This document shows positions 36,463 to 39,625 of a stretch of 39,625 nucleotides of DNA, piece after piece (within the stretch, counting starts at the first letter, position 1; each line of letters starts with the position of its first letter). This DNA comes from Actinomycetota bacterium (GTDB lineage Bacteria; Actinomycetota; Actinomycetes; Nanopelagicales; Nanopelagicaceae): NCBI GenBank assembly GCA_005800815.1, contig SYEK01000009.1, forward strand, positions 1 to 39,625, read 5' to 3'. A program made the position numbers and the translations under genes. Under the pieces are notes generated by a model, which saw nothing but the letters and a program-made list of their open reading frames with translations, ran no database searches and was not told the DNA's origin.

Positions 36463-38097
<1,635 letters not shown>

Positions 38098-38106
38098 GGA
38101 GTGAAG

Positions 38107-38146
38107 TAAGTAAGGCCCCGCAGTTCTTTCTGCGGGGCCTTACTTA
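38107..38146. terminator. Long palindromic terminator between convergent groEL and whiB
   Basis: TAAGTAAGGCCCCGCAG (38107-38123) pairs perfectly with the complementary arm at 38130-38146 around a TTCTTT loop, a 17-base-pair stem. It lies between two genes that converge, so it can serve both strands. There is no long T-run on either side, but a short T-rich segment follows on the + strand. Confidence 0.85.
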
Positions 38147-38180
38147 TCTATCTCTTTCAACTCAGGAGGCGAGTTAAAAT

Positions 38181-38483
38181 CTATGAGGCGTGATGTATGT
38201 CAGAGGCACTCTCTTTATTGATCAACGCCAGACGATCATCCTCTGATAGACCGCCCCAAATTCCATAAGGCTCTTGCACGGCCAGGGCGTGCTCCCGACA
38301 TGCTGCAATCACAGGACAGCTGGCACAGATCGCCTTGGCGCTATTTTCACGATTGCGCCTGCGAGGACCGCGCTCTCCATCTGGATGGAAAAACATCTCA
38401 GCGGGCAGATCGCGACATGCACCTTGGTACTGCCACTCCCATTCATCTGCAACGGGGCGGGGTAAGCGTGATAATTCAGCCAT
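38181..38483 (-). CDS. WhiB-family iron-sulfur transcription factor (WhiB3/WhiD-like)
   Basis: WhiB proteins are actinobacterial [4Fe-4S] regulators that bind the main sigma factor. Cysteines C23, C53, C56 and C62 form the C-x29-C-x2-C-x5-C cluster ligands. The G-I-W-G-G turn (74-78) and basic R-R-R-N-R segment are present. The segment F-F-H-P-D-G-E-R-G resembles the WhiB3/WhiD branch. In mycobacteria whiB3 also lies beside groEL1, which supports this. The ATG at 38483 gives 100 aa; the frame is open for 14 further codons upstream, but the promoter falls there. It has no ribosome binding site and is probably leaderless. Confidence 0.9.
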   Translation of the reverse strand: MAELSRLPRPVADEWEWQYQGACRDLPAEMFFHPDGERGPRRRNRENSAKAICASCPVIAACREHALAVQEPYGIWGGLSEDDRLALINKESASDIHHAS

Positions 38484-38489
38484 GGCAAT

Positions 38490-38518
38490 ACTGTACAACC
38501 GCGCCATAGGTTGTTCAA
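38490..38518 (-). promoter_or_regulatory. whiB promoter, leaderless
   Basis: On the minus strand TTGAAC (38518-38513) and TACAGT (38495-38490) are exactly 17 bases apart, and the whiB ATG follows the -10 box after six bases. This predicts an mRNA beginning at or next to the start codon. The -35 box is part of a TTGAACAA repeat, which could let a regulator occlude it. Confidence 0.65.
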
Positions 38519-38544
38519 GTACCAACGCTTCAAAACTTGTTCAA
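38491..38544. repeat. Three related TTGWACAR boxes in the whiB-merR intergenic region
   Basis: Read on the minus strand, TTGAACAA occurs at 38544-38537 and again at 38518-38511, and TTGTACAG occurs at 38498-38491. The spacing is 26 and 20 bases. The boxes overlap the -35 and -10 of whiB and lie about 50-100 bases before the divergent MerR-type gene. They are candidate operators for that regulator; this is inference. Confidence 0.45.
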
Positions 38545-38593
38545 AGGGCGTTTTGGGGTGGTGAGATAGGCCACTTAGCGCAACGATAGGCAC

Positions 38594-39478
38594 ATGGCCA
38601 AGCAAGAGGAGCTCCTGACGGTGGCAGCGGTCGCTCGGCGCTTGGGCGTGGCAGCGGCAACGCTTCGCACCTGGGATAGGCGCTATGGCCTTGGCCCATC
38701 GAGCCATCAGGCTGGGGCGCATCGGCGCTACCGCCCTCTTGATCTGGCCCGCCTGATGCTCATGCGCCGGTTGATATCAACGGGTGTGGCTCCGGCCGAT
38801 GCGGCAGAGCAGGCCAAAGGCTACAAAGGTAAATTGCGCATGGAAGAGGTCGCCTACGAGTTTGCATCACGTGATGATCTCGTTCAAGGTATTTATAAAG
38901 CGGCCAACAACTTTGACACAGTTTTTATCCAGGCGCAGCTGCGCAAAGATCTACAGACACACGGTGTGGTCTCCACATGGTCAGAGGTGATAGCCCCGGT
39001 CCTCTATCTCGTTGGAAAAAGTTGGGAGGAGACAGAGGAGGGAATTGAGGTAGAGCATCTATTGACTGAGGTCATCAAGAGTGTCTTGCGCGAGTCAGTG
39101 AGCGCAGTTGAGCTATCACAGAGCTCTCGGCCCGTAGTGCTTGCCGCAGTAGGAGCAGAGATCCACGTCCTGGCTCTGCATGCATTAGCCGCTGCCCTTG
39201 CAGAAAGAGATATTCGAACACATTTCTTGGGCTCGCGAACACCTGTGCAGGCTCTGCACGCCATCATCACACGCTCTGCACCGCCGGCAATATTTCTGTG
39301 GGCTCAACTCTCCCAAAACGCACGCCCTGAATACTTCCGAGACCTACCCAAAGTTCGCCCTGCACCACGGATAGTGCTGGGTGGACCGGGGTGGGATCAA
39401 GATGAGTGCGCAGGTGTCGCCTTTGCCCATGATCTTAGCCAGGCATGCCTTGAGATCGAGTATGCAGTAGGGCTTTAA
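38594..39478 (+). CDS. MerR-family regulator with CarH/LitR-like cobalamin-binding domain
   Basis: The 294 aa protein has an N-terminal MerR winged helix (about 5-75; L-T-V-A-A-V-A-R-R-L-G-V then R-T-W-D-R-R-Y-G-L). A helical B12-binding-2-like domain follows (about 93-170). It carries W144-x9-E154-H155, the W-x9-EH signature of adenosylcobalamin photoreceptors CarH/LitR. The Rossmann-like domain has E189-x-H191, fitting the lower axial histidine, although the following glycine of the ExHxxG pattern is alanine. Such proteins repress in the dark and fall apart in light, often controlling carotenoid genes. It is divergent from whiB. The ribosome binding site is weak (GATAGG). A non-cobalamin relative remains possible. 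Confidence 0.8.
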   Translation: MAKQEELLTVAAVARRLGVAAATLRTWDRRYGLGPSSHQAGAHRRYRPLDLARLMLMRRLISTGVAPADAAEQAKGYKGKLRMEEVAYEFASRDDLVQGIYKAANNFDTVFIQAQLRKDLQTHGVVSTWSEVIAPVLYLVGKSWEETEEGIEVEHLLTEVIKSVLRESVSAVELSQSSRPVVLAAVGAEIHVLALHALAAALAERDIRTHFLGSRTPVQALHAIITRSAPPAIFLWAQLSQNARPEYFRDLPKVRPAPRIVLGGPGWDQDECAGVAFAHDLSQACLEIEYAVGL

Positions 39479-39625
39479 AGGCCCATCATGTCCTTGACTC
39501 TGGTAGGGCTACTCCTTTAGCCTTTTATAATTACTCTCCCTTTGCACCCTGCGATAGGGCAAAGGCCGCATCGGGTGATAAGGAGTGGCAGATAAAGACT
39601 CATCGCCTCCTGCATCTTCTTGTCC
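39479..39625 (+). other. Terminal region: weak terminator, promoter and possible start of next gene
   Basis: AGGGCT (39505-39510) and AGCCTT (39519-39524) can pair with one G-U around eight bases, followed by TTATAATT, a weak terminator for the MerR gene. TTGACT (39494-39499) and TAGCCT (39518-39523), 18 bases apart, form a good promoter pair. A perfect TATAAT at 39526-39531 is 26 bases from TTGACT. AAGGAG at 39580-39585 runs into GTG 39585, from which the frame stays open for 13 codons to the window end. Too little is visible to name a product. Confidence 0.35.

Follow-up and report, generated by a model that had tools for sequence, protein, structure and literature searches.

The question raised by this locus is whether a MerR-type regulator with a B12-type fold, encoded next to a divergent whiB gene, controls that neighbor and, if so, whether the signal is light, a corrinoid, or both. 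The window, by which we mean the whole stretch of DNA that was analyzed (39,625 nt), is one entire contig (C7) of a 1.285-Mb assembly. An earlier note on this DNA had proposed a light- and B12-sensing repressor of the CarH/LitR type that would connect light to a WhiB protein and to a chaperonin operon. The features on which our account depends are as follows.

38594 to 39478, forward strand: CarH-like MerR/B12-domain regulator of the "three-tryptophan" type, 294 amino acids, ATG start
38618 to 38809, forward strand: MerR helix-turn-helix domain, residues 9 to 72 (Pfam MerR_1, E value of 2.9e-13)
38885 to 39091, forward strand: four-helix B12-binding_2 domain, residues 98 to 166, with W144, E154, and H155 (PF02607, 31.4 bits; cut-off, 23)
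39134 to 39406, forward strand: B12-type Rossmann domain, residues 181 to 271, with E189-x-H191, W236, GG, and W267 (PF02310 and fold match to Thermus CarH)
38181 to 38483, reverse strand: whiB gene of the WhiB3 type, divergent from the regulator (Pfam Whib, E value of 2.2e-24; WhiB3 structure 8cyf)
38494 to 38518, reverse strand: 25-bp conserved element TTGAACAACCTATGGCGCGGTTGTA, proposed operator in the whiB promoter (73 of 73 loci)
38513 to 38518, reverse strand: whiB -35 hexamer TTGAAC (invariant in 73 of 73 loci)
38490 to 38495, reverse strand: whiB -10 hexamer TACAGT after a 17-bp spacer (72 of 73 loci have TANNNT here)
38526 to 38544, reverse strand: partial second copy of the element, TTGAACAAGTTTTGAAGCG, 26 bp upstream (similarity to TTGAACAAC)

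RESULTS AND DISCUSSION

A regulator with the domain order and fold of CarH

The open reading frame at 38594 to 39478 is real and conserved. Its product has the order MerR, B12-binding_2, B12 Rossmann that is found in class I CarH/LitR proteins, represented here by Thermus CarH (TtCarH; PDB 5c8d, 3whp, and 8c31), and it shares with them the Wx9EH motif, the axial ExH, the GG pair, and the fold. TtCarH is the nearest solved relative by sequence (phmmer, residues 7 to 281; E values of 4.5e-21 for 3whp and 5.8e-21 for 5c8d). A profile search for the B12 domains, which had been advised as a check, gave a divided answer: the B12-binding_2 domain scored above its cut-off, but the Rossmann domain reached 27.1 bits with PF02310, under the Pfam cut-off of 32.1. 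The score against the NCBIfam CarH equivalog was 103 bits (cut-off, 400); we rejected this cut-off as a test of class because it does not discriminate, two copies with canonical motifs (described below) scoring only 122 to 123 bits.

Structure prediction and comparison with CarH had also been advised, and the outcome agreed with a CarH-like fold. An AlphaFold model built from 48 of the 81 rows of the family alignment had a mean pLDDT of 86.8, and every one of the 50 Foldseek matches listed for it was TtCarH (best, 1e-16). VIA-align gave the model Z scores of up to 19.9 against TtCarH, 20.4 to 21.2 against photocobilins (8j2w, 8j2x, and 8j2y), 19.6 to 19.7 against CtMerR (8jbs), 18.2 against the SCHIC domain of AppA (4heh), and 17.3 against MetH.

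The whiB neighbor and the chaperonin side

As had been claimed, the regulator stands next to whiB, which is adjacent and divergent. This whiB is of the WhiB3/WhiD type, its best PDB match being WhiB3 (8cyf; E value of 3e-33, versus 8.4e-14 for WhiB1); such proteins are described in PMC4255298 as having important roles in the redox responses and development of Actinobacteria. A whiB gene with the Cys motif is divergent from the regulator in 73 of the 81 rows of the family, and in 73 of the 75 window-family loci with sufficient upstream sequence (window included). Six of the eight rows lacking it start no more than 310 bases from a contig end, and the others are L003 and L077. At L077, no whiB with the Cys motif was found within 900 bases. 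L003 corresponds in length and sequence to contig C51 of G033 (the genome of L130). There, at about 1156 to 1352 of L130, whiB has lost most of its Cys cluster to an internal deletion and no intergenic region is left, although the CarH-like gene remains whole; this may be a pseudogene or an assembly error.

The groES and groEL genes lie on the far side of whiB. The claim that linked the light/B12 sensor to WhiB and to the chaperonins survived in its first part, in that the connection to whiB proved specific through a conserved promoter element, but the chaperonin part was not supported: groEL and whiB are convergent, and an 18-pair terminator-like hairpin at 38106 to 38147 separates them. We also rejected the groEL-whiB-guaB neighborhood as regulatory evidence; it looks like old synteny, with what we take to be a parallel in Streptomyces and Mycobacterium. 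At L034, the gene after the regulator was read by eye as guaB.

A 25-bp element in the whiB promoter

The whiB promoter has the form TTGAAC-N17-TANNNT, and its 25-bp core is nearly invariant: all 73 intergenic regions contain the element, TTGAACAAYYTAYGNNNCGRTTGTA, little altered and always at the same place in the promoter. In the window, the ATG follows the -10 box by 6 bases, and the whiB transcript is therefore probably leaderless. A generic sigma-70 scan of 38000 to 39625 called no promoter; the whiB promoter was missed because it has 8 of the 12 consensus bases by our own count, and the threshold was 9.

Operators of CarH are reported to consist of tandem 11-bp repeats, nnnnTnnACAn (PMC9304148). 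The sequence TGAACA, which fits TnnACA, occurs in all 73 elements, and in 67 of them a T stands 11 bp beyond it; the consensus element contains no second full TnnACA at the 11-bp spacing. A second, partial copy upstream of the element, matching at least eight of the nine bases of TTGAACAAC, was found in 20 of the 73 loci, 19 of them at 26 to 27 bp, compared to 0.8% of shuffles. The element is also readable as an inverted repeat, ACAACC-N8-GGTTGT. We did not take the operator to be a deep inverted repeat, which is clear in the window's group but has a weaker right arm elsewhere among the families, and so is only one of two readings. Separately, a second conserved block, about CACCACYYGAAA on the whiB strand, was seen by eye at 38552 to 38563, near the start of the regulator gene; it is perhaps the regulator's own promoter or a site for another factor.

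We then compared the distribution of the element with that of the regulator. Searched for at up to 3 mismatches, the element has a single site in the window's own genome, beside whiB; with this single site, a genome-wide light regulon acting through the 25-bp element was rejected for this motif. Across 121 genomes of the order, a CarH-like gene (called at 150 bits or more) was found in 94, and in 91 of these 94 the element is divergent from that gene and within 400 bp of it. The exceptions are G109 and G076, in each of which a contig end truncates the gene, and G033, with its missing intergenic region. The 121 genomes contain 92 sites at up to 2 mismatches, of which 91 are beside the CarH-like gene; the 92nd begins at base 59 of a different contig of G109, the genome whose gene is itself cut. 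Sites with exactly 3 mismatches numbered 36, versus 18 for the backward control in the same genomes. Among them are the upstream partial copy of G096 and six occurrences of a single recurring sequence, TTGAACAATCTTTGTNCCGGCTTCA (in G003, G018, G062, G076, G082, and G099), which looks like coding sequence since, by eye, the base that varies occupies the third position of a codon in one frame of the reverse strand.

The 27 genomes without a CarH-like gene include 21 that also lack a WhiB3-type whiB (best match under 65 bits); the other six keep that whiB and contain no site of the element at up to 3 mismatches. Several of the 27 are only 80 to 90% complete, and some absences may be gaps. In the small-genome genus g3, all 10 sampled genomes (G008, G011, G019, G070, G091, G092, G095, G117, G119, and G120), three of them single-contig genomes, have neither gene, and on this pattern the whole regulator-whiB module is lost from the genus.

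Kept and altered residues of the predicted cofactor site

Residues were compared in a MAFFT alignment of 81 rows (the window protein and 80 loci kept of 90 found) plus TtCarH, for which the chain numbers of 3whp are the native numbers plus 5. Residues W144, E154, H155, E189, and H191, the equivalents of W131, E141, H142, E175, and H177 of TtCarH, do not vary in any of the 81 rows. With relatives that share only 47 to 67% identity with the window protein, such constancy makes the match to the CarH ligands more than chance. The two motifs W144-x9-E154-H155 and E189-x-H191, first pointed out in the window's reading frame alone, are thus present throughout the family, Wx9EH falling in the B12-binding_2 domain that scored above its PF02607 cut-off. 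Their spacings agree with those of CarH to within one residue, as had been stated; H155 and H191 are 36 residues apart, compared to 35 in TtCarH.

The remainder of the site departs from CarH. The last position of ExHxxG had been read as Ala, and position 194 is indeed Ala in the window and Ala, Pro, or Ser (65, 15, and 1 rows, respectively) in the family, never Gly. The extent of the deviation had nevertheless been understated, with W236, W267, and the loss of the His132 equivalent overlooked. The Ser of the SxT/V motif, in the nucleotide pocket, is replaced by Trp at position 236 in 81 of 81 rows. The GG pair is retained in every row and is directly followed in every row by W267, and a further Trp, W129, is invariant in the family where TtCarH has Leu. 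The equivalent of the bis-His residue His132 is absent, being E145 in the window and Glu, Ala, Val, or Lys (43, 29, 7, and 2 rows) in the family. The equivalent of Gly160 (alignment column 173) is not conserved, Lys being the commonest residue (31 of 81 rows); Gly160 is described as important for the dimer-dimer contact of TtCarH (PMC10442372), and a tetramer of the TtCarH type is therefore doubtful for this regulator. The regulator also differs from TtCarH in having a whiB3-type neighbor.

Two published motifs could be compared directly. The CarH Rossmann motif is given as D/ExHx2G/P-x41-SxT/V-x22-27-GG (PMC9304148); the regulator has the Glu, the His, and the GG but has Ala194 in the window and Trp for Ser in 81 of 81 rows. 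The light signature is given as GxxW, EH, GxxH, and GxxxP (PMC11796333, section 8); the regulator has GxxW (G141 and W144), EH, and GxxxP (G213 and P217) but not GxxH, and Gly occupies position 188 in none of the 81 rows. The assignment to the CarH/LitR type stands for the domains, the fold, the upper-face ligands, and the axial His but not for SxT/V, GxxH, and ExHxxG. Because it departs from two tested defining motifs, we do not file the regulator as a class I CarH/LitR protein and regard it instead as a CarH-like variant that may work like the CarH repressor.

We infer that the upper, adenosyl side of the CarH site is kept and that the lower, nucleotide side is rebuilt. W236 could fill the nucleotide pocket, and since the lower pocket is altered (Ser to Trp, Gly to Ala or Pro, and an extra Trp), the corrinoid or its binding mode should differ from that of CarH. 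On balance, the regulator probably binds a corrinoid, while the chances that it responds to light appear about equal to the chances that it does not.

The SCHIC domain of AppA, which binds heme and is not known to come with a MerR domain, has a fold like that of the regulator, with 14% identity over the aligned part. CtMerR and the photocobilins are described as photoreceptors that, like the regulator, are without a His132 equivalent (PMC11796333, section 11); the regulator differs from these fold neighbors in lacking the published GxxH signature. Myxococcus CarA, described as a B12-independent paralogue with a repressor role, shares the MerR and B12 folds but is without the Trp of Wx9EH (PMC9304148), whereas the regulator family keeps W144 in all 81 rows.

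Corrinoid supply and light-related genes

A PduO-type adenosyltransferase is encoded in the window's own genome and in 115 of the 121 genomes of the order. The own genome also contains a weak cobalamin-riboswitch match (24.9 bits; gathering score, 31.5) preceding Peripla_BP_2 and FecCD transport genes, as well as a corrinoid-protein gene (B12-binding, 99.7 bits); riboswitch matches occur in 113 of the 121 genomes, only 55 of them over the gathering score. The cell thus plausibly imports and adenosylates B12. The suggestion that the DNA comes from a sunlit-water actinobacterium agrees with the named relatives, which include Candidatus Planktophila, and with the rhodopsin, phytoene-synthase-type, and photolyase-type genes of the own genome. 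A search for light genes with matching operators had been advised; the genes are present, and the 25-bp element, at up to 3 mismatches, occurs only at whiB. Taken together, the adenosyltransferase, the riboswitch and transport genes, and the rhodopsin-type genes make it plausible that adenosylcobalamin is available and that light is relevant to the organism, whether or not this regulator uses either. Some cultured freshwater Actinobacteria of other orders are reported to respond to light through a sensor given as unidentified in that report (PMC8591293).

B12 supply was rejected as an explanation for retention of the regulator. Adenosyltransferase genes and riboswitch matches occur with and without the regulator gene, and no correlation was seen; 8 of the 10 sampled g3 genomes, which are regulator-less, have the adenosyltransferase. 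In the cluster of the corrinoid-protein gene (G000:C11:43465 region; L001:449-3173), genes read from their open reading frames as IclR-like, MtaC-like (corrinoid protein), and MetF-like stand in a row, a possible corrinoid-dependent methyl-transfer pathway.

Relatives across the Actinomycetes

Among 148 genomes drawn from the class, full-length relatives were found in many other families, the best at about 200 to 315 bits. Forty stretches picked from the better matches yielded 41 class rows, 26 of them adjacent to a divergent whiB and the other 15 not. The three Trp residues extend to these rows (W129 in 41, W236 in 38, and W267 in 40 of 41), and Gly188 of GxxH is present in 10 of 41. In the 26 whiB-adjacent rows, W144 is kept in 24 and E154, H155, and H191 are each kept in 25; W144 is lost in 6 of the 15 rows that are not beside whiB. 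Upstream of whiB, the element is recognizable at 19 of these 26 loci from other families (19 or more matches over its 25 positions, a score that no more than 5 of 300 mononucleotide shuffles of the region in question attained), and the other 7 have no significant element.

In a tree, TtCarH grouped with L128 and L129 (support, 100/98), and 60 three-Trp rows stood apart (98/86); the placement of the long rows L160, L163, and L177 is unsure, and long branches meet. L128:2156-3034 (in G031) and L129:2236-3153 (in G085), from two genomes of the window's order, are CarH/LitR-like copies with canonical motifs that lie beside fasciclin-domain genes and are distinct from the whiB-linked type. Both score over the PF02310 cut-off, and at the three Trp sites they have V, S, and either S or F.

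Two further loci were observed. At L168:2540-6351 (G150), two three-Trp MerR-B12 genes lie near a polyprenyl synthetase gene and an amine-oxidase-family gene read as phytoene-desaturase-like; in both regulators, Gln replaces the Trp of Wx9EH. Besides L176, G145 has a second copy paired with whiB, L177, in which W144, E154, H155, and H191 are lost and E189 is kept, suggesting a paralogue without corrinoid.

From these rows we offer a tentative reading, somewhat short of an even chance as a whole, of an Actinomycetes-wide CarH-like clade, marked by the three Trp residues and a remodeled pocket, that would form an old two-gene module with WhiB3/WhiD-type genes and would read corrinoid state (light-cleaved, de-adenosylated, or a different cobamide), one operator setting the level of the Fe-S regulator. 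On this reading, none of the 81 members of the window's own group would be picked up by the GxxH light signature in its published form. Among the matches listed from the open-licence literature, the three-Trp clade is named nowhere, the pairing of a CarH-like gene with whiB is not described, and no B12-domain regulator of WhiB3/WhiD-type genes appears.

A working model and its alternatives

We conclude that the CarH-like protein very probably regulates the adjacent whiB gene through the 25-bp element and does so as a repressor, since the promoter is normally spaced (17 bp) and both its -35 box and its spacer fall within the element. As a first step, the regulator would act at the element, which runs from the -35 box through the 17-bp spacer into the beginning of the -10 box, and protein bound there would block RNA polymerase; the sequence comparisons strongly support action at this site. 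As a second step, suggested by the invariant ligands and the fold, the C-terminal module would bind a corrinoid, most likely adenosylcobalamin, with W144, E154, and H155 capping the adenosyl group and H191 on the cobalt, and the bound form would repress. As a third and weaker step, light or loss of the adenosyl group may release the protein and allow whiB to be expressed, so that a signal of light or B12 state would feed an Fe-S redox regulator. The joined statement, that of a dedicated CarH-like repressor of the divergent whiB3-type gene whose corrinoid-bound form represses and which light or adenosyl loss releases, seems to us evenly poised between right and wrong. The regulator is a candidate light sensor with a defined target and a directly testable 25-bp site, and a B12-domain repressor conserved beside WhiB3/WhiD-type genes would be an input not found in the literature listed; the altered pocket would also allow a clear test of the range of corrinoids that domains of this kind can take up.

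A different signal could act through the same repressor-operator pair. If the regulator responded to corrinoid supply (B12 or a particular cobamide), with light irrelevant, the altered lower nucleotide pocket, the lack of a bis-His residue, and the lack of GxxH in 81 rows would all be understandable, and cells in which a weak riboswitch match is followed by Peripla_BP_2 and FecCD genes may depend on import. We consider this unlikely, however, as every residue capping the adenosyl group is kept and adenosylcobalamin is inherently light-labile.

It is likewise improbable that the B12 fold has been kept for a ligand other than cobalamin, whether another tetrapyrrole or chromophore or none, in a pocket rebuilt by W129, W236, and W267. 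These three conserved Trp residues are absent from TtCarH and the two canonical copies, AppA SCHIC is a fold neighbor, W144 is lost in 6 of the 15 non-whiB relatives, CarA is B12 independent, and a different light-sensing mechanism is suspected for class III LitR in PMC9758184. Against this stands the retention of W144, E154, H155, and H191 in 81 of 81 rows and in 24 to 25 of the 26 whiB-adjacent rows, for which a heme-binding or ligand-free protein would have no obvious need.

That an ordinary CarH/LitR protein controls carotenoid, rhodopsin, or photolyase genes by light, with whiB an accidental neighbor, is suggested by the presence of such genes in the own genome and by the two L168 regulators beside polyprenyl synthetase and phytoene-desaturase-like genes, but it is very hard to reconcile with the single site of the element in the genome at up to 3 mismatches and with a divergent whiB in 73 of 75 loci and 26 of 41 class rows.

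Finally, the element could be bound by another factor, for example, in WhiB autoregulation, with the CarH-like protein acting elsewhere; the element does sit in the whiB promoter, and Wbl proteins work together with the primary sigma factor, but this is highly improbable, since autoregulation predicts that the element would stay in the six regulator-less genomes that keep whiB (at least 140 bits; G043 and G113 of genus g2 and G055, G069, G079, and G083 of genus g6), and at up to 3 mismatches it is present in none of the six, the absence being weak in G079, where a contig end leaves only 138 bases ahead of the conserved core of whiB. The element lies between the two genes, so one deletion could have removed it together with the regulator gene, and no recognizable old whiB promoter is left in G055, G069, G083, or G113. 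In G043, however, a promoter-like remnant, TTGACA ... GCGATTGTA, survives from which the AACAACYTATG part is gone, which argues, in this one case only, against a single deletion.
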